From Acidisphaera sp. (lineage in GTDB: Bacteria > Pseudomonadota > Alphaproteobacteria > Acetobacterales > Acetobacteraceae), in assembly GCA_019240395.1 (NCBI GenBank), contig JAFAYM010000056.1:1-50854 (forward strand): a DNA stretch of 50,854 bases. The letters are read 5' to 3'. The position numbers and the translations under genes were made by a program. Shown here piece by piece: positions 10,334 to 45,247 of this stretch. Each line of letters starts with the position of its first letter. Positions within the stretch are counted from its first letter, which is position 1. The notes beneath the pieces are model-generated. The model ran no database searches. It saw nothing but the letters and a program-made list of their open reading frames with translations, and had not been told where the DNA came from.

Positions 10334-10346
10334 CGTTTCCTCCGGT

Positions 10347-10763: not shown

Positions 10764-10775
10764 CTCGGCATCAGA

Positions 10776-10900: not shown

Positions 10901-10901
10901 C

Positions 10902-12219: not shown

Positions 12220-15501
<3,282 letters not shown>

Positions 15502-26135: not shown

Positions 26136-26154
26136 CGCTTCGACACATCCGCTG

Positions 26155-26294: not shown

Positions 26295-26311
26295 CTGAGG
26301 ACCCGAGCCCG

Positions 26312-27670: not shown

Positions 27671-27701
27671 AACGCCGGGCGCACCAGCGGGATACACTCT
27701 C

Positions 27702-28307: not shown

Positions 28308-28312
28308 CCGCC

Positions 28313-29888: not shown

Positions 29889-29981
29889 GAGGGCGGCCCG
29901 GACCGCCTTACTCGAGTGAAGGGCTTCGGGGGCCGCTGACCCCGGCGCATGCGCCAGCGGTGGGGGACAGAGCCCCTGGTC
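29889..29981. repeat. G/C-rich palindromic repeat, copy 3, overlapping the EamA 3' end
   Basis: This copy contains a GGCGG-n6-CCGCC hairpin (29892-29907) serving both convergent genes, then CCTTACTCGAGTGAAGGG and GGGGACAGAGCCCCTGG. It shares the core CCTTACTC and the GG-CAGAGCCCCT block with copy 1. Unlike the others it reaches into a coding frame: the last 22 codons of the EamA gene lie in it. Confidence 0.78.
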
Positions 29982-30903: not shown

Positions 30904-32034
30904 GTGAACCCGCGACAATCCCACCCGATGTTCGGCCCCAACCGCTTCAAGCTGGGTCTGTTCAACGCGAATTGCGACGGCGGGCTTTCGATGAGCCTGG
31001 CGCCGGAACGCTGGCGCGCCGAGTGGGAGGAGATCGAGCAGCTCGCCATCCTCGCCGACGAGGCGGGGATCGACTTCATCCTGCCGGTGGCGAAATGGCG
31101 CGGCTTTGCCGGCCAATCCAACAACAACGGCCGCTCCTTCGAGACGCTCACCCACGGCGCGGCGCTGGGCGCGCTGACCAGGCGGACCGCCATCTTCTGC
31201 ACCGTCCATGTGCCGCTGGTCACGCCGGCTTTCGCGGCGAAAGCGATCGCCACGGTGGACCACGTGACGCGCGGCCGCGTCGGCCTGAACATCGTCTGCG
31301 GCTGGAACCAGGACGAGTTCGACATGCACGGCGTGTCGATCGACCCGGAGCGGCGCTACGACCAGGGCCTCGAATGGTTCCGCATCTTCGCCCGGCTGCT
31401 GGAAGGCGGCGAGCCGTTCGACTGGGACGGCGAGTTCTACCATCTCAAAGGGCTGCAGACCGATCCGCTGAGCCTGCAGCGGCCGTGGCCGGTGATCATG
31501 TCGGCCGGCTTCTCGCCGAAGGGGCGCGCCTTCGCCGGCCAGGCCGCCGACGTGCTGTTCACCAATCTGACGGAGATGGAACAGACGCGCGGCCTGGTCG
31601 ACGACGTCGATCGGGTCGCCGCCGCGTACGGAAGGCGCATCGCGGTCTACACGCTGTCCCACGTCGTCTGCCGGCCGACGCGCAAGGAGGCCGAAGACTT
31701 CTATTTCTATTTCGCCGAGGAGATGGCGGATCGCGAATCGCTGGACTACTATCGCAGGCAGAAGGGCCTGACCTCGCGCGCGGACCCGCGCTATATCGAC
31801 CGGCCCTTGATGACCCGCTTTTCGCGCAGCACCGGCAAGAGCTATTCCGGCTCCTATCCCGGCGCCTATCCCCTGGTCGGGGCGCCCGACGATATCGCCG
31901 GAGAGATGGCGCGCATGCACGAGGGCGGCCTCGCCGGAACCTCGATCGCCTTCCTCGACTATCTCCGGGAAATGCCGTACTTCAATGCCGAGGTCTTGCC
32001 GCGGCTGCAGCGCGCGGGATTACGCACGGGATAG
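30904..32034 (+). CDS. LLM-class flavin-dependent monooxygenase
   Basis: A bacterial luciferase-like, FMNH2-dependent monooxygenase of 376 residues. It shows FKLGLFNANCDGGLSMS, LPVAKWRGFAGQSNNNGRSF, GRVGLNIVCGWNQDEFDMHG and the YDQGLEWFRIFARLL helix, which resemble RutA and other LLM oxygenases acting on N-heterocycles or sulfonates. I chose GTG 30904, which has AAAGG 7 nt upstream; ATG 30928 in frame lacks a ribosome-binding site. It is the first gene of the long plus-strand locus and lies 27 bp before a substrate-binding-protein gene. It probably carries out the first attack on the imported compound, but the substrate cannot be told. Confidence 0.85.
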   Translation: MNPRQSHPMFGPNRFKLGLFNANCDGGLSMSLAPERWRAEWEEIEQLAILADEAGIDFILPVAKWRGFAGQSNNNGRSFETLTHGAALGALTRRTAIFCTVHVPLVTPAFAAKAIATVDHVTRGRVGLNIVCGWNQDEFDMHGVSIDPERRYDQGLEWFRIFARLLEGGEPFDWDGEFYHLKGLQTDPLSLQRPWPVIMSAGFSPKGRAFAGQAADVLFTNLTEMEQTRGLVDDVDRVAAAYGRRIAVYTLSHVVCRPTRKEAEDFYFYFAEEMADRESLDYYRRQKGLTSRADPRYIDRPLMTRFSRSTGKSYSGSYPGAYPLVGAPDDIAGEMARMHEGGLAGTSIAFLDYLREMPYFNAEVLPRLQRAGLRTG

Positions 32035-32061
32035 AAGCCGGCGACCATCGGGAGGAAAGCG

Positions 32062-33276
32062 ATGCTACGGACACCAGTCCTCAGGGTCTGCCTGACGCTC
32101 GCGGTTTCGGCACTCGCGGTCTTGGCGCTGGCGCCGCTGCGCGCCTCGGCGGCGGACGTGGCGGGGGTGACCGCGGACAGCATCACGATCGGCATGTTCG
32201 GGCCGATCTCCGGCTCCTATTCGGCGCACCGCGTCGTCTATGACGGGGCGCAGGCCGTCTACAAGCAGGTCAACGACCAGGGCGGCCTGTTCGGGCGCAA
32301 GATCAAGGTGGTCTTCGAGGATGATGGCTGCGACATCGGCCGCGCCCGCGCCGCCGTCAAGAAGCTGATCTCGCGCGATAAGGTGTTCCTGCTGCATGGC
32401 GGCGTCTGCAGCGCCTCGGCCTACGCGGTGCGCCAGGAGGCGATCGATGAAGGCGTGCCATTCATGGTCATGGCGGCGACCATGGACAAGATCACCGAGC
32501 CGGTGAACCACTTCGTCTTCACGACGACGCTGACCGGCAGCAAGAGCGGCCAGACCATCGGCGACTTCATCCGCAGCATGCCCGAGGTCAAGAAGGTGGC
32601 GATCGTCAAGCATCCCGACGACTGGTCGGAGGTGCAGGTGACATCGCTCGATGCGCGCCTGGCCGACGCGGGCATCAAGGTCGCCAGCACCGTCGAGGAG
32701 GAGCGCAACGCGGCGGACGCCACGACGCAGGTGCTCTCGATAAAGGAAGCGGCACCGGATGCCACGGCGGTGATCCTCTATCCCGCGGAGATGGCGGTGT
32801 TCCTGCGGGACTCCTTGAAATACGGCCTCAAGGGACCGTTCATCACCCCAGTCGTCGGCATGGACATGCACGAGATCGAGGATCGGGCAGGCAGCCTGAA
32901 GGCGGTGTCGGACGTGTACACCGGTTCCTTCCTGATCGGCGCGCCCGGCAGCAAGCAGGCGCAGCCCTATGTCGACCTGTTCAAGAAATACTACCCCGAC
33001 GAATCCGTGCAGGCGCTGGATTTCTACGGCATGTCCGGCGCCTACGCGATCGTCGAGGCGCTGCGCCGCGCCGGCCCGGATCTGAGCCGCGAGAAATTCA
33101 TCGCCGCCCTCGAGACCCTGAAGGACTTCAATGCCGGCCCCTCGGCCTGCACCATCACCATCACCCCGGAGAACCACCAGGGCTGCGAGTCCGGCACGAT
33201 CTGGACCCTGGTCGGCAACGACATCGTCGCCATCGGCCCGACCTGGAAGGCGGTGAAGGGCGGCGCCACGAACTGA
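32062..33276 (+). CDS. Liv-type periplasmic substrate-binding protein (paralogue 1)
   Basis: A 404-residue secreted binding protein with signal peptide (MLRTPVLRVCLTLAVSALAV then LRASAAD). The mature N-terminus ITIGMFGPISGSYSAHRVVY starts the Peripla_BP_6 fold; AAVKKLISRDKVFLLHGGVC and ITITPENHQGCESG follow. ATG 32062 has a clear GGGAGGAAAG. It is very similar over its length to the second binding protein two genes downstream (34129-35310), so the operon encodes two paralogues for one LivHMGF set. Several paired Cys (DGCD, GGVCS, SACT, QGCE) may form disulfides. Confidence 0.9.
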   Translation: MLRTPVLRVCLTLAVSALAVLALAPLRASAADVAGVTADSITIGMFGPISGSYSAHRVVYDGAQAVYKQVNDQGGLFGRKIKVVFEDDGCDIGRARAAVKKLISRDKVFLLHGGVCSASAYAVRQEAIDEGVPFMVMAATMDKITEPVNHFVFTTTLTGSKSGQTIGDFIRSMPEVKKVAIVKHPDDWSEVQVTSLDARLADAGIKVASTVEEERNAADATTQVLSIKEAAPDATAVILYPAEMAVFLRDSLKYGLKGPFITPVVGMDMHEIEDRAGSLKAVSDVYTGSFLIGAPGSKQAQPYVDLFKKYYPDESVQALDFYGMSGAYAIVEALRRAGPDLSREKFIAALETLKDFNAGPSACTITITPENHQGCESGTIWTLVGNDIVAIGPTWKAVKGGATN

Positions 33277-33295
33277 GCGCAGGGAGCGCAGCACG

Positions 33296-34105
33296 ATGAC
33301 GCGGATCTGGCACCAGAGCTTTACCGTCCTCGAGGATCTTCCCGCCTACGCTGAAGGCATGCGCCGGCACGTCGCCAAGGTGGTGCGCCCGGATACCGAA
33401 GTCGTGCTGCATGGCCAGCTTCCCGGCACCTATCCCACCAGCTACCCCGGCGACGATATCGGCTTTTCCGCGCTGTTCGCCTTGCACGGCCAGCAATGGA
33501 TCGCCCGCGCCCGGCAGGCGGAGCGCGAGGGCTTCGACGCCTACGCCATGTGCACCCTGCCCAACCCGATGATCCGCGAGGTACGCACCTTGGTGGACAT
33601 TCCGGTTCTCGGGTATGGCGAGACGAGCTTCCACGTCGCCTGCATGCTCGGCCACCGCTTCGGCATGCTGGTGTTCATCGAGCGGATGATCCCGCTCTAC
33701 TGGGAGCAGTTGACGCAACACGGTCTGAAGGACCGCTGCACCGCCATCGAGGGGGTCGGCTTCAGATTCCACGACGTGCAGGAGGCGTTCAGCAATCCCG
33801 GCCCGTTGATCGATCGCTTCCGCGTCGCCGCGCGCCGCCTGATCGCCGCCGGCGCCGGCGTGATCATTCCGGGCGAGATGCCGCTGAACTTGCTGCTGGC
33901 GAACGAAGGCGTCGACCGGGTCGACGACGCGCCGGTGCTCGACGGACTGGCGGTGACCCTGAAGATGGCGGAGTGCATGGTCGAGCTGAAACGCAGCACC
34001 GGCCTGTCGGCGAGCCGCGAAGGCTGGTTCAATGCGGCGCCGAAGCGCGAACGGGTGCAGGAAGTGCTGGCATTCTACGGCCTCGATCGGCTGGGTGCGG
34101 AATAG
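33296..34105 (+). CDS. Asp/Glu/hydantoin racemase-superfamily protein
   Basis: A 269-residue cytoplasmic protein with the Asp/Glu racemase fold. The first catalytic Cys is present (Cys86 in DAYAMCTLPNP), followed by VDIPVLGYGETSFHVACMLG. Where racemases have the second Cys (GCxG type) this protein reads IIPGEMPLN, with Glu194. One-cysteine members include decarboxylases, isomerases and hydrolases as well as racemases, so a cofactor-free isomerase, decarboxylase or hydrolase is possible. It lies between the two binding-protein genes (20 bp after one, 23 bp before the other), which ties it to the imported compound. Confidence 0.78.
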   Translation: MTRIWHQSFTVLEDLPAYAEGMRRHVAKVVRPDTEVVLHGQLPGTYPTSYPGDDIGFSALFALHGQQWIARARQAEREGFDAYAMCTLPNPMIREVRTLVDIPVLGYGETSFHVACMLGHRFGMLVFIERMIPLYWEQLTQHGLKDRCTAIEGVGFRFHDVQEAFSNPGPLIDRFRVAARRLIAAGAGVIIPGEMPLNLLLANEGVDRVDDAPVLDGLAVTLKMAECMVELKRSTGLSASREGWFNAAPKRERVQEVLAFYGLDRLGAE

Positions 34106-34128
34106 GCGGCGAAACGGAGGGGATGACG

Positions 34129-35310
34129 ATGCGCGGACCAATCGGGGCGTGGCTGGCGGCGCTGACGATCCTGCTCGCCGCCGGCGCTGCGGCAGCCGAG
34201 ACCGGGGTGACCAAGGATACCATTAAGCTCGGCATGTTCGGGCCGCTGACCGGGCCGGTCGCCGTCTTCGGCTACCCCATCAACGACGGCGCGATCGCCA
34301 TCTACGACAAGGTCAACGACGAAGGCGGCATCTACGGCCGCAAGATCGAGATCATCGACGAGGACGGCGCCTGCGACCCGGCGAAGACCCGCGCCGCCGT
34401 CAAGAAGCTGATCAGCCGCGACCAGGTCTTCGCGGTGCATGGCGGCAATTGCAGCGCCGCTGCGTTCGCCACGCGCCAGGAGTTCAGCGACGATCACGTG
34501 CCCTGGATGGTGATGGCGGCGACGCTCGACAAGATCAGCGCGCCGCTGGACCGCTACGTCTTCACCACCACCCCGCCGGGCAGCACCGACAGCGCCGAGA
34601 TCATCCGCTTCATCCGCTCGATGCCGAACGTCAAGCGCGTCGCCGTGGTCCGCCACACCGATGAGTGGGCGAACTACAAGCTCGAGACCATCCGCCGCGA
34701 GCTGACTGGGCCGGATCTGCAGCTCGTCGCCGACGAGGTGCTCGACCGGAACGCCACCGACGCGACGACGCAGGTGCTGAAGATCAAGGAGGCGAAGCCG
34801 GACGTGGTGCTGTTCATCACCTACCCCGGCGAGAGCGCGGTGTTCCTGCGGGACTCCCGCAAATACGGTCTGGACGGCCCATTCGTTGGCACCAATGCGA
34901 CGATGGACCTGCTCGACCTCGCCGACCGTGCCGGCGGTTTCGAGAACCTCAAGGACGTCTATGCCGACGCCTTCCTGGCCGGCCCGATCGGCAGCCCGGA
35001 AATGCAGGGATCGACCGACATCTTCAAGAAATACTTCCCCAACGAGAAGCTGCAATCGCTGTCCTTCTACGGCATGTCCGGCGCCTATACGATTGTCGAC
35101 GCGCTCCGCCGCGCAGGCCCTGACCTGACCCGCGACAAATTCATCGCCGCGCTGGAATCGACGAAGGACCTGTCGGTCGGTCCCTCGTACTGCAAGGTGA
35201 CGATCACGCCGGAGAACCATCAGGGCTGCCTCGCCCAGCACATGTGGACCGTGCGCGACGGCAAGATCGCGGTGGTCGGCGAGACATGGAAGCCCCCCGT
35301 CACGCAATAG
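34129..35310 (+). CDS. Liv-type periplasmic substrate-binding protein (paralogue 2)
   Basis: A 393-residue secreted binding protein: signal peptide MRGPIGAWLAALTILLAAGA followed by AAAETG, then IKLGMFGPLTGPVAVFGYPI. It shares long blocks with paralogue 1, for example RAAVKKLISRD, VMAATLDKIS against VMAATMDKIT, and VTITPENHQGC near the C-terminus. I chose ATG 34129, 8 nt after GGAGG; ATG 34123 two codons earlier is too close to it. It is directly followed, 7 bp later, by livH. Retention of two diverged paralogues suggests two related ligands. Confidence 0.9.
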   Translation: MRGPIGAWLAALTILLAAGAAAAETGVTKDTIKLGMFGPLTGPVAVFGYPINDGAIAIYDKVNDEGGIYGRKIEIIDEDGACDPAKTRAAVKKLISRDQVFAVHGGNCSAAAFATRQEFSDDHVPWMVMAATLDKISAPLDRYVFTTTPPGSTDSAEIIRFIRSMPNVKRVAVVRHTDEWANYKLETIRRELTGPDLQLVADEVLDRNATDATTQVLKIKEAKPDVVLFITYPGESAVFLRDSRKYGLDGPFVGTNATMDLLDLADRAGGFENLKDVYADAFLAGPIGSPEMQGSTDIFKKYFPNEKLQSLSFYGMSGAYTIVDALRRAGPDLTRDKFIAALESTKDLSVGPSYCKVTITPENHQGCLAQHMWTVRDGKIAVVGETWKPPVTQ

Positions 35311-35317
35311 GCCGCGG

Positions 35318-36190
35318 ATGAATCTCGTCACGCTGCTGGTCGCGGGCCTGGCGAACGGCAGCCTCTATGCGCTGGTCGCACTCGGCCTGGTGCTGATCTA
35401 CAAGACCCACGACCTCGTCAACTTCGCGCATGGCGAGATCCTCATGGCCGGCGGGTTCATCGGCTTCACCGCCTATCAGACGATGCACCTGCCCTATCCC
35501 GTGGCGTTCCTGCTGGCGATCGCGCTGGGCGGCCTGCTCGGCGCGGTGATCGAGCTGGTGGCCTTCCGGCGGGTCGCCGACCAGCACCACATCACCCTGG
35601 CGATGGTAACGGTAGGGCTGTCGGTGTTCATGAAGGGCATCGCGCGCGTGCCGTTCGGCACCGACATCTACACCTTCCCCCCGGCCTTCTCCGCGGATCG
35701 CATCACCCTCGGCTCGGCGGTGATCGCGCCGCAGCATTTGCTGACCATCGGCATCGCGGCGCTGCTGACGCTGCTGCTGTTCCTGTTCTTCCGCTACACC
35801 ACGCTCGGCAAGCAGATGCGCGCGACGCAGCAGAACATCACCGGCGCGCGGCTGGTCGGCATCAACACAGGGCGGGTCTTTTCCTCGACCTGGAGCCTCG
35901 CCGCGGCGCTCGGCGCTGGCGCCGGCGTGCTGGCGGCGCCGCTATCCCTGCTCTACCCCGACATGGGCACGAATTTTCTGCTGAAGGGCTTCGCCGCGGC
36001 GGTGCTCGGGGGTTTCGAGAGCGTGCCGGGCGCGATCATCGGCGGCTTTCTCGTCGGCATCATCGAAATGCTGTTCGGCGGCTACGTGTCCACGGCGTTT
36101 CAGCAGGTCTCCGCGTTCTTCATCATCATCGTCATCCTGTTCATCCGGCCGAACGGGCTGTTCGGCCGCCGCGCCGTGGCCCGGGTCTGA
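35318..36190 (+). CDS. livH: branched-chain amino acid-type ABC transporter permease LivH (second set)
   Basis: Transmembrane subunit of 290 residues. Hallmarks are VAGLANGSLYALVALGLVLI, THDLVNFAHGEILMAGGFIG and, near the end, FLLKGFAAAVLGGFESVPGA. The ATG lies 7 nt after the stop of the second binding-protein gene and 3 nt separate its stop from livM, so the transporter genes form one transcript. This LivH is distinct in sequence from the one at 22803-23660, so the two sets are not a recent duplication. Confidence 0.93.
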   Translation: MNLVTLLVAGLANGSLYALVALGLVLIYKTHDLVNFAHGEILMAGGFIGFTAYQTMHLPYPVAFLLAIALGGLLGAVIELVAFRRVADQHHITLAMVTVGLSVFMKGIARVPFGTDIYTFPPAFSADRITLGSAVIAPQHLLTIGIAALLTLLLFLFFRYTTLGKQMRATQQNITGARLVGINTGRVFSSTWSLAAALGAGAGVLAAPLSLLYPDMGTNFLLKGFAAAVLGGFESVPGAIIGGFLVGIIEMLFGGYVSTAFQQVSAFFIIIVILFIRPNGLFGRRAVARV

Positions 36191-36193
36191 CAT

Positions 36194-37177
36194 ATGGAGC
36201 GCTTGCCCTGGCTGCGGCGCGGCTTTGCGCCCGTACTCTGCGTGTTGCTGGTGCTGTTGGCGCAGGTGGCCGACAGCTACACCCAGTACATCGTCAACCT
36301 CGCCTTGATCTACGTCGTCATCGGGGTCGGGCTTAATTTTCTGCTCGGTTACGCCGGGCAGTTCGCCTTTGCGCATGCCGCGTTGATGGGGATCGGCGCC
36401 TACACCACCGCCCTGCTGACCAGCCGGCTATATTGGTCGTTCTGGCTTTGCCTGCCGCTCTCCGGCGTGGTCGCGGCGGCGCTGGGCGCGCTCGGGGCAT
36501 TGCCGGCCATGCGCATGAAGCGGGTCTACCTGGCGCTGGTGACACTGGCCTTCGCCCAACTCGTGGTCTGGGTCCTGGTGAACTGGAATGTCGTCACGCT
36601 CGGCACCGACGGCGTCGACGTGCCGGCGCCGATGCTGTTCGGCTGGCGGGTGAAGGGCGACACCAGCGTCTTCTACGTCGTCCTGCCCTGCACTGCGCTG
36701 ATGTACTGGCTGGCCAAGCGCATCCTGGAATCGCGGATCGGCCGCGCCTTCGTGACGATCCGCGAGAATGAGATCGTCGCGCGCTGCAACGGCATCAACG
36801 TCGCGCGGACGAAGACCGTGGTGTTCGCGCTGTCGGCCTTCTATGCCGGCATCGGCGGCAGCCTCTATGCCCTCACCCTAGGCTTCATCGTGCCCGATGC
36901 CTTCGGCCTGTCGCAACTGGTGCTGCATTTCTCGATCGTGGTGCTCGGCGGGCTGCTCAGCCTGTCCGGCGCGGCGATCGGCGCGGTGGTGCTGACCGCG
37001 CTGCCCGAGCTGCTGCGCGACCTGCAGGCGCTGCAGGAGATCATCTACGGCCTGGTGCTCATGGTGGTGATCCTGGTTATGCCGCAGGGCATCGCCGGCC
37101 TGCTGAAGCGCTGGGGCGTGCTGCCGCGCGAAGTGCTGGCGCGCAACTGGCGCGCGCTCGCCCGCGAAACGCCGTGA
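36194..37177 (+). CDS. livM: branched-chain amino acid-type ABC transporter permease LivM (second set)
   Basis: Transmembrane partner of LivH, 327 residues. It has VGLNFLLGYAGQFAFAHAAL, MKRVYLALVTLAFAQLVVW, the cytoplasmic EAA-like loop around VTIRENEIVARCNGINV, and VVLGGLLSLSGAAIGAVVL. The stop overlaps the GTG start of livG (GTGA). The C-terminal tail is basic and cytoplasmic. Membrane topology of about eight to ten helices is expected. Confidence 0.92.
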   Translation: MERLPWLRRGFAPVLCVLLVLLAQVADSYTQYIVNLALIYVVIGVGLNFLLGYAGQFAFAHAALMGIGAYTTALLTSRLYWSFWLCLPLSGVVAAALGALGALPAMRMKRVYLALVTLAFAQLVVWVLVNWNVVTLGTDGVDVPAPMLFGWRVKGDTSVFYVVLPCTALMYWLAKRILESRIGRAFVTIRENEIVARCNGINVARTKTVVFALSAFYAGIGGSLYALTLGFIVPDAFGLSQLVLHFSIVVLGGLLSLSGAAIGAVVLTALPELLRDLQALQEIIYGLVLMVVILVMPQGIAGLLKRWGVLPREVLARNWRALARETP

Positions 37178-37947
37178 ACGCACCGTTGCTCGACGCGCGC
37201 GACGTCACCGTGCGCTTCGGCGGGCTCATCGCCGTGGACGCCGTGTCGCTAGCGATTCCCGAGCGCGAAATCCGCGGCCTGATCGGGCCGAACGGCGCCG
37301 GCAAGACCACGTTTTTCAACGCGATCTCCGGTCTCGTGCCGCATGGCGGCGCCGCCTTGCGCTTCGACGGGCGGGACATGCTGCACCTGCCGGCGCACCG
37401 CCGCGCCGCTGCCGGCATGCGCCGCACCTTCCAGTCGGTGCAGCTGGTGCCACAATTCACTGTCCTGGAGAACGTGCTGGTGGGCATGCACACCGGCATC
37501 GCCGACAACCCCGCCGCCAGCGTGCTGGGACTGCCGGGCGGCAACCGCGGCGAGCTCGGCGCGCAACGCGCGGTCATCGAGGTGCTGGAGTTCCTCGGCA
37601 TCGGCGAGACGCTGCTGCAGCGGGTAAACCAGCTGACCTTCGCGCAGCAGCGCTATGTCGAGATCGCCCGGGCGATTGTCGGGCGGCCGAAGCTGCTGAT
37701 GCTCGATGAACCGGCGGCTGGCCTCAGCCCCGGCGACGTGAAAATGCTCGATGCGCTGTTGCGCCGACTGCGCGACGAGTGGGGCATGACGATCCTGCTG
37801 GTCGAGCACGTGCTGTCGCTCGTGCTGGAGATCTCCGATCGCGTGACCGTGCTCGACAACGGCCGGATGATCGCCGAGGGGTCGCCTGCCGAAGTCGCCG
37901 ACGACCCGGCCGTCAAGACCGCCTATCTCGGCAACGAGAATGTCTGA
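37174..37947 (+). CDS. livG: branched-chain amino acid-type ABC transporter ATP-binding protein LivG (second set)
   Basis: Importer ATPase of 257 residues starting at GTG 37174, inside the end of livM. Walker A is GLIGPNGAGKTTFFNAISG, the Liv-type insert MRRTFQSVQLVPQFTVLENV follows, and Walker B is LLMLDEPAAGLSPGD with the switch region ILLVEHVLSLVL. The signature position reads LTFAQQRYVEIARAI, one of the usual LivG variants. It overlaps livF by 8 nt. Confidence 0.92.
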   Translation: MNAPLLDARDVTVRFGGLIAVDAVSLAIPEREIRGLIGPNGAGKTTFFNAISGLVPHGGAALRFDGRDMLHLPAHRRAAAGMRRTFQSVQLVPQFTVLENVLVGMHTGIADNPAASVLGLPGGNRGELGAQRAVIEVLEFLGIGETLLQRVNQLTFAQQRYVEIARAIVGRPKLLMLDEPAAGLSPGDVKMLDALLRRLRDEWGMTILLVEHVLSLVLEISDRVTVLDNGRMIAEGSPAEVADDPAVKTAYLGNENV

Positions 37948-38668
37948 GGCCGCTGCGTCAATGACGATGCTGAGCATCCGCAATCTGGAGGCCGGTTACG
38001 GCTCGCTGAAGGTGCTGCGAGGGTTGAGCCTGGAGGTGCCGCGCGGTCGCGTCGTCGCGCTGCTCGGCGGCAACGGCGCGGGCAAGACGACGACGATGAA
38101 CGCCATCGCCGGGCTGTTGCCGGCGGCCGGCGGCGAGATCCGCTTCGAGGACCGCGAGCTGCGCGGGCTCCCCTCGCATCGCGTGTTCGCCCGCGGCATC
38201 GCCCTGGTCGCGCAGGGGCGGGCGCTGTTCGCGGAAATGACGGTGCGGGAAAACCTCGAGCTCGGGGCGCTGGCGGCGCGCAGCCGCCCCGACATCGTCG
38301 CCCTGACCGAGGATGTGTTCCGCCGCTTTCCGCGGCTGCGCGAACGCGTCGAGCAGCGCGCCGCATCGCTCTCGGGGGGCGAGCAGCAGATGCTGGCGAC
38401 CGGGCGGGCGCTGATGTCTCGACCATCGCTGCTGCTGCTCGACGAGCCGACTACCGGGCTGGCGCCGATCATCGTCAGCGAGCTCGGCCGCATCATCCGC
38501 GAGCTGAATGCCGGCGGGCTGACCATCCTCCTCGTCGAGCAGAATGTCCGCATGGCGCTGCAGGTGGCGGATGAGGTCTATGTCATGCGTAACGGCGAGA
38601 TCGTGCTGCACGGCGCTGCCGCCGAGCTGCAGAACAGCGACGAAATGTTCAGCTCCTATCTCGGGTGA
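37940..38668 (+). CDS. livF: branched-chain amino acid-type ABC transporter ATP-binding protein LivF (second set)
   Basis: Second ATPase, 242 residues. Walker A GGNGAGKTTTMNAIAG, QGRALFAEMTVRENLELGAL, signature LSGGEQQMLATGRAL, Walker B LLLLDEPTTGLAP and LLVEQNVRMALQ are all present. I use ATG 37940, overlapping the livG stop; an internal ATG 24 nt later is also possible. After its stop there are 68 bp before the HMG-CoA-lyase-like gene, the widest gap in the locus, so a second promoter could lie there, although I see none that is convincing. Confidence 0.92.
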   Translation: MSEAAASMTMLSIRNLEAGYGSLKVLRGLSLEVPRGRVVALLGGNGAGKTTTMNAIAGLLPAAGGEIRFEDRELRGLPSHRVFARGIALVAQGRALFAEMTVRENLELGALAARSRPDIVALTEDVFRRFPRLRERVEQRAASLSGGEQQMLATGRALMSRPSLLLLDEPTTGLAPIIVSELGRIIRELNAGGLTILLVEQNVRMALQVADEVYVMRNGEIVLHGAAAELQNSDEMFSSYLG

Positions 38669-38736
38669 ACCGGCCGTTTCATTGACCCCCGCTGATGCCC
38701 GGATTAGGCTCGCACCCGCCCGCAGAGGAGCTTTCC

Positions 38737-39693
38737 ATGGCCTTGCCGAGAAAAATCGCCATCCACGAGCTCGGCCCCCGCGAGGGCATGCAGATCGAGA
38801 AGAACCCGGTGAGCACCGAAGACAAGATCCGGCTGGTCGATCTCCTCTCGGAGTGCAATTTTCCGGAAATCGAGGTGACCTCGTTCGTCAGCCCGAAATG
38901 GGTGCCGCAGATGGCCGACGCGGAGCAGGTCGTCGCCGGCTTCACGCGCCGCCCGGGGACCCGCTACACCGCGATCTACCTGAACACGCAGGGCATCGCT
39001 CGGGCGCTGGCGACCGGCAAGCTCGATATGGAAGGCGTGCTCAGCGTCACCGCCAGCGAGGCGTTCTCCAAGAAGAACACCAACCGCACCATCGAGGAGA
39101 CGTTTGCCGAGACGGAGAAGCGCATCCCCGTGCTGCGGGAATACGGCATCACCACCGACCAGATCAGCGTCATGGCGGCGTTCGGCTGCAACTACCAGGG
39201 CATGGTGGAAGCGGAGCATGTGGTGCGCCTCGTCGCGCGGCTCATGGAAATGGCGGAACAGCACGGCCTCCCCATTTCGCTCATCCAGCTTGCCGACACC
39301 ATGGGCTGGGCGACGCCAAGTTCCATCCGGCGCCTGGTCGGCATGGTGCAGGACCGCTGGCCGGACCAGGTGATCAACCTGCATCTGCACGACACGCGCG
39401 GGCTTGGCATCGCCAACGCCTACGCCGCGCTGGAGATGGGTGTCACGGATTTCGATTCCGCTGTCGGTGGTCTCGGCGGCTGCCCTTATGCCGGGTTCAA
39501 GGGTGCCGCCGGCAACATCGCGACCGAGGATCTCGTGCATCTCTGCCACGAAAGCGGCGTGGAAACCGGCGTCGATCTCGACCGGCTGCTGGATGTCGCG
39601 CGCGAGGCGGAGGCCATCGTCGGTCACGATCTGCCGGGCAAGGTGATGCGCGGCGGCAATCTCGGCGCGTATCGCCTCCAGCACGCGGCCTAG
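38737..39693 (+). CDS. hydroxymethylglutaryl-CoA lyase-like enzyme
   Basis: A TIM-barrel, metal-dependent acyl-CoA lyase of 318 residues that should split a 3-hydroxy-3-alkyl acyl-CoA by a retro-Claisen/aldol reaction. Key residues: Arg15 in ELGPREGMQ, metal ligands His216 and His218 in NLHLHDTRG, and Cys249 in the signature VGGLGGCPYAG. In true HMG-CoA lyases the residue after the active-site Arg is Asp (GPRDG); here it is Glu16, a sign of a different subfamily or substrate. ATG 38737 has AGAGGAG 7 nt upstream. It heads a tight group (gaps of 2-3 nt) with the MaoC-type and ligase genes, pointing to CoA-ester catabolism. Confidence 0.87.
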   Translation: MALPRKIAIHELGPREGMQIEKNPVSTEDKIRLVDLLSECNFPEIEVTSFVSPKWVPQMADAEQVVAGFTRRPGTRYTAIYLNTQGIARALATGKLDMEGVLSVTASEAFSKKNTNRTIEETFAETEKRIPVLREYGITTDQISVMAAFGCNYQGMVEAEHVVRLVARLMEMAEQHGLPISLIQLADTMGWATPSSIRRLVGMVQDRWPDQVINLHLHDTRGLGIANAYAALEMGVTDFDSAVGGLGGCPYAGFKGAAGNIATEDLVHLCHESGVETGVDLDRLLDVAREAEAIVGHDLPGKVMRGGNLGAYRLQHAA

Positions 39694-39696
39694 ACC

Positions 39697-40224
39697 ATGC
39701 CGGAGACGGAAGATTTTTCCGCCTTCGTCGGCACGACGATCGCGCCGAAGACCGCGCCCATGCCGCTGGAACAGGACACGATCCGCCGCTTCGTGCAGGC
39801 GATCATGGACGCCGATCCCGTCTATTACGACGAGGCAGAGGCGCGCCGCACCCGGTTCGGCGCGATCATCGCCCCGCCGCTCTATCCCGTGCACGCCTTC
39901 CGCCACCCGGCGGGGGCGCCCGACCCGCTTGCGGCCATTCAGCGCGATCCGGACTCCGACGGAACCGAAGGCAGCGACGCCGTGGGCTTCGGCCTGCCGC
40001 CCATCCCCTCGCCGTTCAAGCGCATGCTGAACGGCGGCAACGAAATCGAATTCTTCCGCTGCCTGCGCGTCGGCGAGACCGCAGTAGCCCGGCCGCGCTA
40101 CGCCGACGTCTCGGTCAAGCACGGCAAGAGCGGCGATCTGCTGCTGGTGGTCATCGAGACGGCGTTCAGCACCACCGAAGGCGATCCCCTGCTGATCAAC
40201 CGCCAGACCCTGATCTGGAGATAG
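39697..40224 (+). CDS. MaoC-type N-terminal (FAS1-like) dehydratase domain protein
   Basis: A hot-dog-fold protein of 175 residues resembling the N-terminal half of MaoC/HTD2-type hydratases. The motif region IMDADPVYYDEAEARRTRFG corresponds to the hydratase-2 pattern GDxNPxHxD, with the Asp kept but Tyr in place of the catalytic His. IIAPPLYPV follows, as in relatives. It lies 3 nt after the lyase gene and 2 nt before another hot-dog gene, so the two probably form a heterodimeric or heterotetrameric enoyl-CoA hydratase/3-hydroxyacyl-CoA dehydratase. Confidence 0.82.
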   Translation: MPETEDFSAFVGTTIAPKTAPMPLEQDTIRRFVQAIMDADPVYYDEAEARRTRFGAIIAPPLYPVHAFRHPAGAPDPLAAIQRDPDSDGTEGSDAVGFGLPPIPSPFKRMLNGGNEIEFFRCLRVGETAVARPRYADVSVKHGKSGDLLLVVIETAFSTTEGDPLLINRQTLIWR

Positions 40225-40226
40225 AA

Positions 40227-40730
40227 TTGCAACGCCCGTGCTTCGAGGATTTCGCGGTGGGCATGGCGATCGGGCCGGTGGCAAAGGGCCAGATCACCAC
40301 GGCGCACATCATGCGCTGGTCGGCGTCCGTGGAGAACTGGCACCGCATCCATTACGACCAGCGCTTCGCCACCGCGCATGACGGCCTGCCCGACGTGCTG
40401 ATCAACGGCTCCTGGAAGCAGCACGTGCTGGTGCAGCTGATGAAGGATGCGCTGGGGCCGGACGGATGGCTGTGGAAGATCCGCTTCCGCTATCAGCGCA
40501 TGGATGTTGCCGGCGATTCGATCACGGCACTCGGCGAGGCGATCGCCACGCAGGAGGTCGACCGGCTCGGCTTCGTCACCTGCCGCATCCGTCTGGAGAA
40601 CCAGCGCGGCGAAATCTCCACCTCCGGTGCGGCGCTCGGGGTGGTGAAGCTGCGCGACGGACCGGACGTGCCATATCCGTTCGTCGTCAAGCCGGAGTAT
40701 CGGGGGCTCGCCCTGCCGGCGGACGCCTGA
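40227..40730 (+). CDS. MaoC-type hydratase subunit
   Basis: Second hot-dog-fold subunit, 167 residues, opening QRPCFEDFAVGMAIGPV. The hydratase motif reads SVENWHRIHYDQRFA: the catalytic His is kept, while Asn stands where Asp is expected. Its partner immediately upstream has the opposite pattern. I chose TTG 40227 because GGAG lies 6 nt upstream and relatives begin at this point; ATG 40263 would remove the FEDF motif. It ends 2 nt before the acyl-CoA synthetase gene. A very long open frame in the same phase covering the lyase gene is an artefact. Confidence 0.83.
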   Translation: MQRPCFEDFAVGMAIGPVAKGQITTAHIMRWSASVENWHRIHYDQRFATAHDGLPDVLINGSWKQHVLVQLMKDALGPDGWLWKIRFRYQRMDVAGDSITALGEAIATQEVDRLGFVTCRIRLENQRGEISTSGAALGVVKLRDGPDVPYPFVVKPEYRGLALPADA

Positions 40731-40732
40731 CG

Positions 40733-42277
40733 ATGCCGCCCTCGCTGAGCGACATCCTTGCCCATGATGTGCGGCACTTTCCGTCGGCGACGGCGCTGAC
40801 CGTCGACGGCGACGTTCATAGCTATGCCGAACTGGCGAGGCGTGTCGCAGCGGTGCGCGATCGGCTCGCGCCCTGCATTGCAGCCGGCGACCGGCTGGCG
40901 ATCTGGCTGCCAAACTCGCTCGACTGGGTGGCGGGGTTCCTGGCTGCCGCCGAGCTTGGGGCGATCACGGTGCCGGTCAACACGCGCCTGGTCGGGCGCG
41001 AAGTGCGCGACATCGTGGAAGATGCCGGCGCCCGCGCGCTGCTGACCGTCGCCGCGTATCGGGGCAGGCGGTATTTCGAGGAGAGTGCCGACGTGTTCGC
41101 CGGCAGTGCCGCGGCACCGGCTCTGTTCTGCGGCGATCCGGCTAGCGCTCCCGGGGAGTGGCGGTTCTGTGCGGGATCGCAATCGCCGGCGCGGGACATC
41201 GTCGATGTTCCCGACCTGCTCTGCATCCAGTACACCTCCGGCACGACATCGCGGCCGAAAGGCGTGATGCTGACCAACGCCGCCTACGTGCGGACCGCCG
41301 CCTATGTGGCTCGGGCACAGCTGCTGACACCGTCAAGCCGGTTCATGAGTGCAGCGCCGTTCTTTCATTGCAGCGGCAGCATGCACGCCATCACCGTCTG
41401 CCTATTCGCGGGCTGCGGCCTGCACACGATGACCGCGTGGGACCCCGAGCTGGCGACCGAGCTGGTGGCGAGACTGGGCTGCACCGTGTCCCACGCCCTG
41501 TTTCTGCGCGACGTAATGGAGCTGCCGTCGCCCGGGCTGGCTGAGAAATGGTGCACCATGACGAGCGCGGTGACGGTCGGCACGCCGGAGCTGCTGATGC
41601 GCGCGCATGACGAGCTCGGCATCGCCGGCATCGCCAATGTGTATGGGATGACGGAGACCGCGGGCAATTTCACGATGTGGTATCCGGACGATCCGCTCGA
41701 CGATCGGGTGTCCGGCAACGGGCGCGCCATGCCTGGGAATCTGTTGCGCATCGGGGACCCGGCGACCGGGGAGGCCTCGCCCGCCGGCCCGGAGGGGGAA
41801 ATCCAGATGCATGGCCCGACCGTGTTCCCGGGTTACTTCAAGAACCCCACAGCGACCTGCCAAGCCTTCACCGCCGACGGCTGGCTGCGCTCCGGCGACC
41901 TGGGCCGACTCTCCGACGAGGGCGCCCTGACCTATGTCGCCAGGCTCAAGGATGTGATCCGGGTCGGCGGCGAAAACCTGTCGCCGGCGGAAGTGGAAGA
42001 GGCGCTTCTCGGTTTCTCCGCCGTGCAGGAAGTCTGCGTACTTGGCATCCCGGACGAGCGCCTGGACGAGGTTCCCGCTGCCGTCATCGTCCTCGATCCC
42101 GGCGCGCAGCCGGATTGGGGGACGGTGATGGCAGGGTTGAAGGCCCGTCTTGCCGGCTACAAAATTCCAAAACAGGTGTATGTCGCAGACGCCTTGCCGA
42201 AGACCGCGACGAACAAAGTACAACGCGCGGCGCTGAAGCAGCTGATCGGCACACCAGAACTGGCCCGAGTGGTTTAG
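40733..42277 (+). CDS. AMP-dependent acyl-CoA synthetase/ligase
   Basis: ATP-dependent CoA ligase of the ANL superfamily, 514 residues. It shows the phosphate-binding loop YTSGTTSRPKG (around 167-177), the adenine motif VYGMTETAGNF, the hinge region TADGWLRSGDLGRLSDEG, GGENLSPAEVEEAL, and the catalytic Lys in PKTATNKVQR at the C-terminus. All core motifs are present, so the enzyme should be active. It would activate the carboxylate generated by earlier steps to its CoA thioester. It lies 2 nt after the MaoC gene and 2 nt before the PrpD gene. The acid is unknown. Confidence 0.92.
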   Translation: MPPSLSDILAHDVRHFPSATALTVDGDVHSYAELARRVAAVRDRLAPCIAAGDRLAIWLPNSLDWVAGFLAAAELGAITVPVNTRLVGREVRDIVEDAGARALLTVAAYRGRRYFEESADVFAGSAAAPALFCGDPASAPGEWRFCAGSQSPARDIVDVPDLLCIQYTSGTTSRPKGVMLTNAAYVRTAAYVARAQLLTPSSRFMSAAPFFHCSGSMHAITVCLFAGCGLHTMTAWDPELATELVARLGCTVSHALFLRDVMELPSPGLAEKWCTMTSAVTVGTPELLMRAHDELGIAGIANVYGMTETAGNFTMWYPDDPLDDRVSGNGRAMPGNLLRIGDPATGEASPAGPEGEIQMHGPTVFPGYFKNPTATCQAFTADGWLRSGDLGRLSDEGALTYVARLKDVIRVGGENLSPAEVEEALLGFSAVQEVCVLGIPDERLDEVPAAVIVLDPGAQPDWGTVMAGLKARLAGYKIPKQVYVADALPKTATNKVQRAALKQLIGTPELARVV

Positions 42278-42279
42278 CC

Positions 42280-43632
42280 GTGACAGAGCTGACGCAGCAG
42301 ACCGGCGCATTCATCGCGGCACACCGTTTCGGCGCCCTGCCCGAGCAAGCCGTGGCAATCGCCAGGCTGGGCTTCACGGATTGCCTGTCGGTGATGATCA
42401 CCGGCCGCACCGAGCCGGTGGTGCGCATCGTGCGCGAGACGATGACGCGGTTGAAAGAGACGGAGGATTGGCGCCTCTGGCTCGGCGCCGAGCGGGCGAG
42501 CGCGCCGGATGCGGCGCTGGTGAACGGCGTCGCGGCGCACGCGCTGGACTATGACGACGTGGCGCTCGGCGGCCATCCGAGTGCGGTGCTCGTCCCGGCG
42601 ATCCTGGCCGAGGCCGAGGCGACCGGCGCCGACGGTGAGGCGATGGTCACCGCCTATGTGACGGGATACGAGGTGTGGGCGGAACTGCAGGCCCGGGATC
42701 GCGACCCGCATCATGGCAAAGGCTGGCATCCGACCGCGGTGTTCGGCGTGATCGCCGCCGCGGCCGCCGGCGCTTCCCTGCGCCGGCTGGATGCCGAGCG
42801 CGCGGCAACAGCAGTCGGCATCGCGGCCTCCTGCGCTGCAGGCCTGGTGGCGAATTTCGGCACCATGGTGAAGCCGTTCCATGCCGGGCGCGCGGCGCGC
42901 GACGGATTGGTCGCAGCCCGACTGGCGGCTGCCGGGATGAGCGCCGCGCCGGATGCGCTGGAGCACCCCCTCGGTTTCCTCGCCGCCATCTCGCCGCACG
43001 GCAATGCGGATCGCGAGAGCGAGGCGCTGCTCGGCCGTCGATGGCGGATCCTGGAGAACGGCCTGAACGTGAAGAAGTATCCCATCTGCTACGCCACGCA
43101 TCGGACGATCGACGCCATGCTCGACCTGGCGCAGGAGCGCGGGCTGCAGCCCGGCAACATCGTCGGCATCGAGGCCGAGCTCGGCGCCACCCAGGCGGCG
43201 ATGCTGCGCAACCACGCCCCGCAGACCGGGCTGGACGCCAAGTTCAGCGAAGAATTCGCCATGGCCGCCGCCGTGATCGCTCGCCGCGTCGGCCGGGGCG
43301 AGCTGAGCGACGCGTTCGTCCGCCGCCCGGACGTGCAAGCGCTGATGAGCCGAGTGCAGGTCAACGGAACCAAAGCGGCCGATCCTGAGGACCCGACCTT
43401 CGCGCTCGAGGACGGCATCGCGGTGACGCTGGCCGGCGGCGAGACGCTGCACCGCACCGTCCGCTACGCGCGCGGCCATGCGCAGTCGCCGCTTCGGGCG
43501 GATGAACTCTGGCAGAAATTCCGCGACTGCGTCGAAGAGTACGCCGGCGCAGACCGCACGCACGCCCTGTTCGACGCGCTGCAGCGGCTGGAGCGTCTGC
43601 CGAATGCCGCCTCGCTCGCCGCCACGGCATGA
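42280..43632 (+). CDS. MmgE/PrpD family protein
   Basis: A 450-residue member of the MmgE/PrpD fold, which includes 2-methylcitrate dehydratase, cis-aconitate decarboxylase and other lyases or isomerases of polycarboxylates. Family landmarks are LVNGVAAHALDYDDVALGGH, GWHPTAVFGVIAAAAAGASL, GTMVKPFHAGRAARDGL and KKYPICYATHRTIDAMLDL. The start is GTG 42280, 2 nt after the ligase stop. Its end overlaps the hydrolase start (ATGA). A second, distantly related PrpD gene lies at 48080-49483. Confidence 0.9.
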   Translation: MTELTQQTGAFIAAHRFGALPEQAVAIARLGFTDCLSVMITGRTEPVVRIVRETMTRLKETEDWRLWLGAERASAPDAALVNGVAAHALDYDDVALGGHPSAVLVPAILAEAEATGADGEAMVTAYVTGYEVWAELQARDRDPHHGKGWHPTAVFGVIAAAAAGASLRRLDAERAATAVGIAASCAAGLVANFGTMVKPFHAGRAARDGLVAARLAAAGMSAAPDALEHPLGFLAAISPHGNADRESEALLGRRWRILENGLNVKKYPICYATHRTIDAMLDLAQERGLQPGNIVGIEAELGATQAAMLRNHAPQTGLDAKFSEEFAMAAAVIARRVGRGELSDAFVRRPDVQALMSRVQVNGTKAADPEDPTFALEDGIAVTLAGGETLHRTVRYARGHAQSPLRADELWQKFRDCVEEYAGADRTHALFDALQRLERLPNAASLAATA

Positions 43633-44471
43633 TCGCGCTACGCCGCGGCTTCGTCGATCTGCCGCACGGCCAGATGCATTACCGCGTGTGCGGCGATCCG
43701 GCGCTGCCCCCGCTGGTCATGTTCCACGGCTCGCCGGGTTCCGGCTTCAGCCTCATGCCGCTCGCCGGACATCTCGCCACCGCACGGCGGGTGATCGCGA
43801 TCGATACTCCGGGAAACGGCGATTCCGAGCCGCTGCCTCTCGAGATGCCGGAGATCGCCGACCTCGCCGACGCACATTGGCACACCATCGAGGCGCTCGC
43901 TCTGGAGCCGGTCGATCTCTATGGCTATCACACCGGTGCTGCCATCTGCACCGAGCTTTCCATTCGCCACGGCGCGCAGATCCGTCGCATCGTCATGGAC
44001 GGCATTTCCGTGTTCGATCCTGCCGAGAGCGGCGCGCTCGTCGCCAACCAGCACGCCCCGGACCTGCCGGCAGATTTCGACGGCGGCCAGCTCGCCCGCG
44101 CCTGGTCCATGGTGCGCGACGCACACCTGTTCTGGCCCTGGTGGGACCGGCGCAGCGAGACGCGGCGCGCGCTGGGGCTGCCCTCCGCCGACTATCTCCA
44201 CGGCGAAGTGCTCGAAGTCCTCAAGGCGAACCGGACCTATCACCGCTCCTACCTCGCGGCCTTGCGCTATCCCAAGCGCGAGAAACTCCCGCAAATCCGC
44301 AATCCCGTGCTGGTCACGGGCTGCCCCACCGATCAGCTGTTCAGCCACATGGACCGGGCGGCGGCTCTCATTCCGGGTGCGGTCAAGCAGATCTCGGCTG
44401 AGCGCGGGAATGGCGGCGATCTCGCAAAAGCGGCCGCAGCCATGCTGGGATTCCTCGATCGGCAGAACTAG
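43629..44471 (+). CDS. alpha/beta-hydrolase-fold protein lacking the usual nucleophile
   Basis: A 280-residue alpha/beta-hydrolase with the oxyanion-type FHGSPGSGFSLMP and the fold-typical RVIAIDTPGNGDS. At the nucleophile elbow, where GxSxG is expected, it reads LYGYHTGAA, placing His101 in the nucleophile position. Near the C-terminus the usual GxGH loop reads AERGNGGDL, so the catalytic His also appears absent. It is therefore either a non-hydrolytic member (lyase or oxygenase-type chemistry without a triad) or catalytically dead. The start overlaps the PrpD stop by 4 nt, and the SDR gene follows after 11 nt. Confidence 0.85.
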   Translation: MIALRRGFVDLPHGQMHYRVCGDPALPPLVMFHGSPGSGFSLMPLAGHLATARRVIAIDTPGNGDSEPLPLEMPEIADLADAHWHTIEALALEPVDLYGYHTGAAICTELSIRHGAQIRRIVMDGISVFDPAESGALVANQHAPDLPADFDGGQLARAWSMVRDAHLFWPWWDRRSETRRALGLPSADYLHGEVLEVLKANRTYHRSYLAALRYPKREKLPQIRNPVLVTGCPTDQLFSHMDRAAALIPGAVKQISAERGNGGDLAKAAAAMLGFLDRQN

Positions 44472-44482
44472 GGCGAGCGCAC

Positions 44483-45247
44483 ATGCGGTTCAGCAAAAGG
44501 ACGGCACTGGTGACCGGGGCGAGCGGCGGCATCGGCAGCGCGATCTGCCGGCTCCTGGCGTCAGAGGGGGCAAGTCTCTGTCTGGCGGACATGCAAGGCA
44601 CCGACGAGCTGGCCGAGGAATTGCGGGCGAGCGGCAAGCAGACCATCTCGGTGCCGACCGATGTCGCCGACCGCAGCGCCGTCGCCTCAGCGGTCGCGCG
44701 CACGCTCGAGACGTTCGGCCGCCTCGACATCCTGGTGACCGTCGCCGGCGTCGTCTCTCACGGCTCGGCGGAGCAGCTCGCCGAAGCGGAATGGGACCGC
44801 GTGCTGGACATCAATCTCAAGGGCACCTTCCTCTGCTGCCAGGCCGCCATCGCGCCGATGCGCGCGCAGCACTACGGCCGGATCGTCACCATCGGCTCGA
44901 TACTCGGCAAGAACGGCGGCAACGCGCGCCCGTGGATCGCGCGCAATGAGCAGGACCGTTCAGGCAATGTCGCCTACGGCGCTTCCAAGGCCGGCGTGCA
45001 CGCACTCACTCTGTATCTCGCCCGGGAACTCGCGGCGGACGGCATTACCGTCAACGCGGTGGCGCCCGGGCCGATCGCCTCGGCGATGACGCAAGCCTTT
45101 CCCGAGACGCTGCGCGCGCTGATCCCGGCGGGACGGCTCGGCCAGGCCAGCGAAGTGGCGGAAGCCGTCGCCTTCCTGGCCAGCGAGAGCGCCGGCTTCA
45201 TCACCGCCGAGATCCTCGACGTCAACGGCGGCATGTGGGGGGATTAG
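44483..45247 (+). CDS. short-chain dehydrogenase/reductase family oxidoreductase
   Basis: Classical SDR of 254 residues, with cofactor motif TGASGGIG, structural Asn-type segment TVAGVVSHG, ILDINLKGTF, Ser in VTIGSILGKNGG and the YGASK pair, then VNAVAPGPI and C-terminal DVNGGMWGD. An 11-residue insertion (ARPWIARNEQD) lies between the catalytic Ser and Tyr. The residue after the first beta-alpha unit (ADMQGTDE) carries Asp, which would favour NAD(H). It is the last plus-strand gene of the catabolic group; the stop is 26 bp from the convergent crotonase-fold gene. Confidence 0.9.
   Translation: MRFSKRTALVTGASGGIGSAICRLLASEGASLCLADMQGTDELAEELRASGKQTISVPTDVADRSAVASAVARTLETFGRLDILVTVAGVVSHGSAEQLAEAEWDRVLDINLKGTFLCCQAAIAPMRAQHYGRIVTIGSILGKNGGNARPWIARNEQDRSGNVAYGASKAGVHALTLYLARELAADGITVNAVAPGPIASAMTQAFPETLRALIPAGRLGQASEVAEAVAFLASESAGFITAEILDVNGGMWGD

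Follow-up and report, generated by a model that had tools for sequence, protein, structure and literature searches.

The closest functional parallel to the locus reported here is the itaconate/methylsuccinate cluster of P. aeruginosa and C. necator, which has five genes (Ict, Mcd, Ich, Ccl, and Msi) with the roles of CoA transferase, acyl-CoA dehydrogenase, hydratase, (S)-citramalyl-CoA lyase, and MmgE/PrpD methylsuccinate isomerase (excerpts of PMC12290011 and PMC9875883). Known MmgE/PrpD substrates have a 1,4-dicarboxylate backbone in common (excerpted text of PMC12290011). The Rut pyrimidine pathway is another point of comparison; it combines a bacterial-luciferase-like (LLM) flavin monooxygenase of the RutA/SfnG group with an alpha/beta-hydrolase. 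Here we describe 15 plus-strand genes at 30904 (or 30928) to 45247 of Acidisphaera sp. contig JAFAYM010000056.1 (GCA_019240395.1). The window analysed is this entire contig (C244; 50,854 bp), and the genome is 4.5 Mb in 303 contigs and 97.85% complete. We read the block as a variant form of dicarboxylate catabolism by a CoA lyase, not as a system of a new kind. Possibly, though with some doubt, it encodes an undescribed pathway with two new activities: a racemase-fold isomerase or decarboxylase of the imported compound that would use a Thr/Glu pair in place of two cysteines, and a loop-insertion relative of hydroxymethylglutaryl-CoA (HMG-CoA) lyase (HMGL) that would cleave 2-substituted malyl-CoA to acetyl-CoA and 2-oxo acids.

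As in the itaconate/methylsuccinate cluster, functions for CoA activation, hydration, C-C cleavage, and an MmgE/PrpD enzyme are clustered in the window. The lyase, however, is of the HMGL type, an acyl-CoA synthetase replaces the CoA transferase, and no counterpart of Ict or of the dehydrogenase Mcd lies within 30904-45247. We take Ccl to be CitE-like and not HMGL-like, and Ich is presumably MaoC-like. The window differs further in its additional LLM, racemase-fold, hydrolase, short-chain dehydrogenase/reductase (SDR), and ABC importer genes, and its MmgE/PrpD protein is without the epimerase Tyr. Compared with the Rut pathway, the operon has no further identified Rut-type gene besides the hydrolase, and it has a CoA-based second half. 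No described pathway with this gene set was found in the open-access full-text literature, gene combinations included. An earlier note on this DNA had likewise known of none, although it did not name the itaconate/methylsuccinate cluster; its view that the genes suit CoA activation, hydration, and retro-aldol or Claisen cleavage agrees with the comparison made here.

Eleven of the 15 genes were typed with Pfam and NCBIfam; LivH, LivM, LivG, and LivF were typed by reading their translations and by similarity to Liv genes elsewhere. The block spans 14.3 kb, and its successive intergenic gaps are 27, 19, 17, 7, 3, -4, -8, 26, 3, 2, 2, 2, -4, and 11 bp. The gene types, coordinates, and short gaps given in the earlier note all stand (the gaps measure -8 to +27 bp), but its count of fourteen genes becomes 15. 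Between 30600 and 45500, there were no sigma-70-like promoter sites (shuffle mean 1.4) and four terminator-like sites, all on the minus strand (6.0 in shuffles), so both counts are under the shuffled mean. Judged from the sequence, the gene geometry is that of a single operon, and the 15 genes very probably form one functional unit.

Conservation of linkage was assessed with the N-terminal half of the MaoC-type hydratase (MaoN), which has matches in 21 of 397 genomes of the family at E <= 1e-15 (own genome included). Genome G677, from another genus, has 13 of the 15 block genes at 53-79% identity within 14.2 kb of contig C47 (locus L102). The genes are reordered there, with HMGL and SDR moved within the block; the SDR is 66% and the racemase-fold protein 72% identical to those of the window. 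This recurrence exceeds a chance neighbourhood. L102 also keeps the transporter and enzyme halves together, which bears out the single uptake-and-catabolism unit proposed earlier and the conserved linkage that had been set beforehand as its check. Two genes are additional in L102, one for an 801-aa thiamine diphosphate (ThDP)-type E1 protein that scores 180.6 bits against the aceE model (cut-off 859.9) and one for an NtaA/DmoA-type LLM. A stricter class-wide MaoN search (E <= 1e-25) matched the own genome alone (1/385); uniqueness was considered on this basis and rejected, given the strict threshold and the 21/397 of the laxer family search. Since relatedness makes the loci non-independent, these and the following linkage figures are to be read as counts, not tests. 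A codon-usage script supplied the gene calls outside the window, in which starts and small genes are approximate, and some of the compared stretches are short (L077, L172, L173, L145, L155, and L159).

Linkage is also seen from the racemase-fold gene. Of 250 genomes of the order, 26 (the own genome among them) have a match to its protein at E <= 1e-20, and a genome collection yielded 15 loci. Twelve of the 15 collection loci, mostly labelled as Comamonadaceae or its genera, have the racemase-fold gene followed directly by an HMGL gene 74-77% identical to that of the window (tblastn). The order racemase-fold gene, HMGL, MaoN occurs in 11 of the 15, and L065 ends at HMGL. All 12 racemase-HMGL loci have a Bug-type binding-protein gene directly ahead of the racemase-fold gene. 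Six have an SDR gene (54-67%) 3-5 kb upstream, preceded in five by a TcuA-like flavoprotein gene. A GlcD-like FAD oxidase family (F8) is present in seven of these loci and also in L063. Two further families, F12 (a lactonase-like metallo-hydrolase) and F13 (a second racemase-fold protein), each occur in six of the 12 plus L063; all three families are named after one representative each. Across 30 loci at >=46% identity (window included), a binding-protein or Liv ATPase gene directly adjoins the racemase-fold gene in 23, and HMGL (13/30) or an SDR of any kind (12/30) lies within two genes of it. No HMGL was found near the racemase-fold homologues of the other order-wide genomes examined (L033-L052), and the racemase-fold gene is therefore common to several kinds of clusters.

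A recurring set of TcuA-like flavoprotein, SDR, and racemase-fold genes was also observed in L039, L040, L042-L045, and L068. Such sets often include Bug receptors, an isochorismatase-like hydrolase (RutB model below cut-off), more flavoproteins, and, by reading, electron-transfer flavoprotein genes. L068 (Variovorax SRS16 plasmid 4) carries, by annotation, an argH-like lyase, three tricarboxylate-type binding proteins, MmgE/PrpD, TcuA, and two racemase-family genes, and looks like another polycarboxylate or amino-polycarboxylate locus. The TcuA-like flavoprotein was considered as a missing component of the window pathway and set aside, as its best match in the own genome is just 34%.

HMG-CoA lyases (PRK05692; PDB 2ftp, 1ydo) share several features with the HMGL-like enzyme of the window (38695..39693, plus strand). 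It exceeds the curated PRK05692 cut-off (304.6 vs 246 bits), is 78-79% identical to its counterpart in L102, and aligns at GPREG, HLHDT, and GGCPYA...GN. The Arg, HxH, loop Cys, and Asn in these motifs, which we take to be catalytic, are thus all present. The window protein differs in a two-residue insertion in the catalytic loop (GLGGCPYAGFKGAAGN), in Glu for Asp after the catalytic Arg (GPREG, not GPRDG), and in its separate clade. In a tree of 42 HMGL rows, from which proteins <255 aa (including L120) were left out, it falls within a 29-row clade (100/99) and a 13-row subclade (100/100). All 29 members carry two or more additional residues in the loop from GGCP[YF]A to the closing GN, and GPREG is present in every member having the N-terminal part except L123 (GPRDG). 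A third HMGL-like type was observed beside MaoC pairs in L173, L176, and L180 (386-398 aa as called, loop GIGGCPYCGN).

The family score would fit an ordinary HMG-CoA branch, in which a normal HMG-CoA lyase acts on 3-methylglutaconyl-CoA-like intermediates as in leucine or acyclic terpene breakdown, and so would the 41% identity between the window protein and the leucine-type HMGL L119 (479 bits). However, L119, which adjoins genes read as methylcrotonyl-CoA carboxylase subunits, lies outside the 29-row clade, so the earlier designation as HMG-CoA-lyase-like holds for family score and not for placement with the leucine-type enzyme. Neither methylcrotonyl-CoA carboxylase neighbours of the leucine pathway nor any other carboxylase gene was found among the 15 block genes, and an HMG-CoA-type route does not need MmgE/PrpD. 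We regard this branch as improbable.

One CitE-type enzyme of M. tuberculosis cleaves both (S)-citramalyl-CoA and (R)-HMG-CoA (excerpts of PMC6689899). Because a single CitE-type active site serves both substrates, and given the five-role parallel with the itaconate/methylsuccinate cluster, the window HMGL is, by analogy, probably a lyase of a 2-substituted malyl-CoA.

The genes that follow HMGL are all on the plus strand and would supply its substrate. The MaoC-type hydratase is encoded in two parts, MaoN at 39697..40224 (FAS1_DH_region 78.3 bits; 64% in L102) and the second half at 40227..40730 (weak FAS1_DH match of 20.5 bits, below the cut-off of 22; 66% in L102). Next are an acyl-CoA synthetase at 40733..42277 (AMP-binding 218 bits; 53% in L102) and the MmgE/PrpD-family enzyme (PrpD) at 42280..43632 (MmgE_PrpD_N 183 bits, MmgE_PrpD_C 106.1 bits). 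Outside the window, the family-wide MaoN search listed 25 MaoN loci, several of them from one genome, and all were compared. A homologue of the second MaoC half directly adjoins MaoN in 21 of these. HMGL-family genes of any kind occur in 16, loop-insertion HMGLs in 12, and PrpD in 10. Nine (L106-L109, L142, and L168-L171) have the full set of CaiB transferase, acyl-CoA dehydrogenase, MaoN/MaoC, PrpD, and HMGL, and thus the same five roles as the itaconate/methylsuccinate cluster, with an HMGL-like lyase.

The nearest PDB structure to the window PrpD by sequence is IDS epimerase 2hp3 (E 2.1e-57), which, like Msi, belongs to the MmgE/PrpD family. The motifs line up with 2hp3, and the carboxylate-binding residues and catalytic His are present in the window protein. 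The comparison with Msi uses the residue list in the excerpted text of PMC12290011, with 2hp3 as the aligned structure and Msi taken from its description; the acidic carboxylate-binding residue is Asp in the window and Glu91 in Msi. The catalytic Tyr, second base of IDS epimerase and Msi, is replaced by His in the window. His is also found at this position in nine PrpD relatives (48-57% identity), and the more distant L106_12, L109_5, and L047_3 retain Tyr.

The five-role parallel would also fit plain use of itaconate, mesaconate, or methylsuccinate by a pathway in which some parts have been exchanged and the LLM and racemase-fold genes are peripheral. In keeping with a pyruvate product, neither the window operon nor, judged by profile, any of the nine full-set loci has a ThDP gene. 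However, L102 retains LLM, racemase-fold, and SDR genes alongside the module, and the operon is without CoA transferase and acyl-CoA dehydrogenase genes. Plain C5-dicarboxylate use is thus an improbable account of the locus, and like the HMG-CoA branch it is less likely than the route proposed below.

ThDP-dependent enzymes often act on 2-oxo acids, and they occur in the HMGL loci L102, L111, L112, and L114. A ThDP enzyme beside HMGL would suit a 2-oxo acid product other than pyruvate, and the support for this is partial. By annotation, a Variovorax SRS16 plasmid (L111) and a Diaphorobacter HDW4B plasmid (L114) each combine PrpD, HMGL, acyl-CoA dehydrogenase, MaoC parts (short and on the opposite strand in L111), CoA transferase, and ThDP-dependent enzymes. 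In Caballeronia SBC2 (L112), HMGL and MaoN are accompanied by a fragment of an acyl-CoA synthetase gene, and a ThDP enzyme is encoded some 12 kb away from HMGL. A ThDP partner as a general part of the module was rejected, with 0/9 matches in full-set loci.

Hydantoin and allantoin racemases (HpxA 3qvj, AllR 5lfd) have the fold and Pfam family of the racemase-fold protein of the window (33296..34105, plus strand). It scores 68.3 bits against Asp_Glu_race (PF01177; cut-off 31), and its AlphaFold model, built with 17 sequences, has a pLDDT of 86.0 and allantoin racemase 3qvj as best PDB match (Foldseek E 2.8e-13, query TM 0.75). Family and fold are thus those of an Asp/Glu/hydantoin racemase, as the earlier note had it. 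The catalytic pair of allantoin racemase KpAllR is Cys79 and Cys184 (excerpts of PMC12661438); these align to Thr87 and Glu194 in the window protein, in alignments of about 23% identity that are gapless at the first site. Residues were counted in rows of at least 220 aa, and removal of 18 of 48 rows under 46% identity left 30, window included. None of the 30 has Cys at either catalytic position, Thr87 is kept in 28, and Glu194 is kept in 29. The residue just ahead of Thr87 is Cys in the window protein, but several homologues have Ala, Met, Thr, or Ser there. In the paralogue F13, Cys occupies the first catalytic position in the same register. A Cys-Cys racemase is therefore unlikely, which qualifies the earlier assignment. 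A maleate isomerase identity was also considered and rejected; it ranked only 35th in Foldseek, and Cys is missing at both aligned catalytic positions. The homologue in L012 contains one in-frame TGA, and the same gene in L041 has no called gene and is absent from the 30 rows.

Import would be through a LivHMGF system encoded around the racemase-fold gene. Two LivK-type periplasmic binding proteins (PBPs), PBP1 at 32062..33276 (Peripla_BP_6 183.9 bits; 69-72% in L102) and PBP2 at 34123..35310 (195 bits; 70%), are 54% identical, consistent with the paralogy noticed earlier. Their nearest solved structures are Leu/Ile/Val-binding proteins and 4ey3, which do not pin down the ligand class. They are followed by LivH-type (35318..36190; 78% in L102) and LivM-type (36194..37177; 78%) permeases and LivG-type (37174..37947; 66%) and LivF-type (37940..38668; LivF-like cluster F9; 74%) ATPases, all on the plus strand.

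The LLM monooxygenase (GTG 30904 or ATG 30928 to 32034, plus strand; Bac_luciferase 169.9 bits) sits between the SfnG, RutA, and NtaA families. Its scores are below the membership cut-offs of the dimethylsulfone monooxygenase SfnG (TIGR04021; 143.7 bits, cut-off 382.95), of RutA (TIGR03612; 107.5 bits, cut-off 498.3), and of NtaA/DmoA (129.8 bits, cut-off 279.7). Homologues are found in L102 (74%, truncated at the contig edge) and adjoining the racemase-fold gene in L033 (65%). No flavin reductase to serve it was identified among the 15 block genes. The alpha/beta-hydrolase (43629..44471, plus strand; Abhydrolase_1 51.4 bits) scores 22.8 bits against the RutD model (cut-off 238.5), and its single-sequence fold prediction (pLDDT 36.7) is too low for use. 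The last gene encodes an SDR oxidoreductase (44483..45247, plus strand; adh_short_C2 193.2 bits) whose homologues (54-68% identity) recur close to the racemase-fold gene in other loci.

The proximity of the LLM to RutA and SfnG raises the main alternative for the first half of the pathway, an N-heterocycle or cyclic imide as starting compound. In this reading, the LLM would act like RutA and open or oxidise a ring of hydantoin, imide, or pyrimidine type, the racemase-fold enzyme would isomerise the ring or its product, a PuuE/imidase-like hydrolase would assist, and the CoA module would finish the carbon skeleton. The racemase-fold homologues of L036 and L037 (60-62%) lie between a Liv importer and hydantoinase A/B (HyuA/HyuB) genes, an arrangement that in L037 is judged by gene families. 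Plasmids of Salipiger abyssi (L166) and Paracoccus yeei (L167) have, by annotation, Asp/Glu racemase, hydantoinase A, hydantoinase B, and MmgE/PrpD genes in the same order. The candidate accessory gene (46117..47010, minus strand) encodes a PuuE/imidase-like protein of the polysaccharide-deacetylase family with a 66% homologue in L109, beside a different PrpD/HMGL/MaoC module. It also counts in favour that the PgdA/PuuE group has HxnM and a cyclic imide hydrolase of P. putida among its relatives (excerpts of PMC9304392). However, the PuuE-like gene is outside the operon and on the other strand, with scores below the cut-offs (PuuE 117.9 vs 424.6 bits; Pfam 22.8 vs 23.1 bits). Among the operon genes, none was identified as similar to RutB, RutC, or RutF or as encoding an amidase or hydantoinase, and the LLM is far under the RutA cut-off. 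We consider an N-heterocycle start unlikely; it competes over the starting compound only and is compatible with the same CoA-based second half.

Our preferred route, from uptake through a branched 1,4-dicarboxylate and its CoA ester to acetyl-CoA and a 2-oxo acid, is tentative as a whole. By homology, the LivHMGF importer fed by the two binding proteins would take up a compound that is probably cyclic or bears amide or carboxylate groups. The LLM, racemase-fold enzyme, alpha/beta-hydrolase, and SDR may then convert it to a branched 1,4-dicarboxylic acid, the LLM by oxygenation, the racemase-fold enzyme by isomerisation or decarboxylation, the hydrolase by hydrolysis, and the SDR by NAD(P)-dependent oxidation. 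An early role is probable for the racemase-fold enzyme, given that a transporter gene usually adjoins its homologues; the order of steps ahead of CoA activation is a guess. The MmgE/PrpD enzyme, judging by its family, would carry out proton transfer, dehydration, or decarboxylation at C2 of the free branched dicarboxylate. The acyl-CoA synthetase would form the CoA ester, and the two-subunit MaoC-type enzyme would hydrate it to a tertiary 3-hydroxyacyl-CoA. Like citramalyl-CoA lyase, the HMGL-like enzyme would then cleave this product, releasing acetyl-CoA and a 2-oxo acid.

Several results weigh against this route. A nearly full gene set was found in only one other genome. There, the LLM gene runs off the edge of the 17-kb contig (L102), on which neither PrpD nor the alpha/beta-hydrolase was found. 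At E 1e-12, the proteins called in the compared loci include no homologue of the alpha/beta-hydrolase. Nine of the 25 MaoN loci have no HMGL (e.g., L103 and L110), three of them (L077, L172, and L181) short or edge-cut. Among HMGLs of 15 relatives picked independently of MaoN, a MaoN-PrpD module lies near one of eight loop-insertion members and none of 12 others; the own genome's three HMGL places were excluded, and L120 was counted with the others on its family score alone (452 bits). The HMGL clade is therefore wider than this pathway, and other members may use other substrates. That the clade is specific to this module was rejected, as 1/8 versus 0/12 gives no support. The window operon is without acyl-CoA dehydrogenase and ThDP enzyme, and the ThDP profile has no match in any of the nine full-set loci; a ThDP partner is therefore no general feature, and simple pyruvate may be the 2-oxo acid released. 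For L114, the assignment of MmgE/PrpD comes from annotation only, and the protein had no match to the window PrpD in the comparison. The only other genome of the own genus (72% complete) has no MaoN match.

The operon is flanked upstream by a divergent EamA transporter gene (29908-30858, minus strand) and downstream by a convergent enoyl-CoA hydratase (crotonase) gene (45274-46062, minus strand). PuuE-like, aldo/keto reductase, crotonase, and PrpD genes nearby had been suggested as possible extensions. All are present. Setting PrpD aside, a close homologue among the compared loci was seen for the PuuE-like gene alone; the crotonase has 31-33% matches only, and the aldo/keto reductase has none. 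A second, distant MmgE/PrpD gene (48080-49483) is 32% identical to that of the operon and is followed by an open frame (49637-50854) with no Pfam match at E 1e-5. At 6254-12113 is a second CoA-type cluster, with genes for two acyl-CoA dehydrogenases, a family III CoA transferase, and a flavin monooxygenase whose best model is PtlE (273 bits; cut-off 1100). The region 25392-29311 encodes a transaldolase-like protein, a nucleotidyltransferase, a GmhB-like HAD phosphatase, a SIS protein, and a GHMP kinase, with heptose-pathway matches below cut-off. A 1062-aa protein with adenylate/guanylate cyclase and AAA_16 ATPase domains is encoded at 12313-15501. Rfam and tRNA scans across the window gave no matches.

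If the pathway with two new activities is real, it would be a second, HMGL-based evolutionary solution to itaconate/methylsuccinate-type chemistry, with a wider range of branched dicarboxylates. Proteins of this kind are filed under "hydroxymethylglutaryl-CoA lyase" and "aspartate/glutamate racemase," and these labels would mislead for this group if the parallel is true. Parts of the pathway recur both in the family to which the window belongs and in betaproteobacterial loci.

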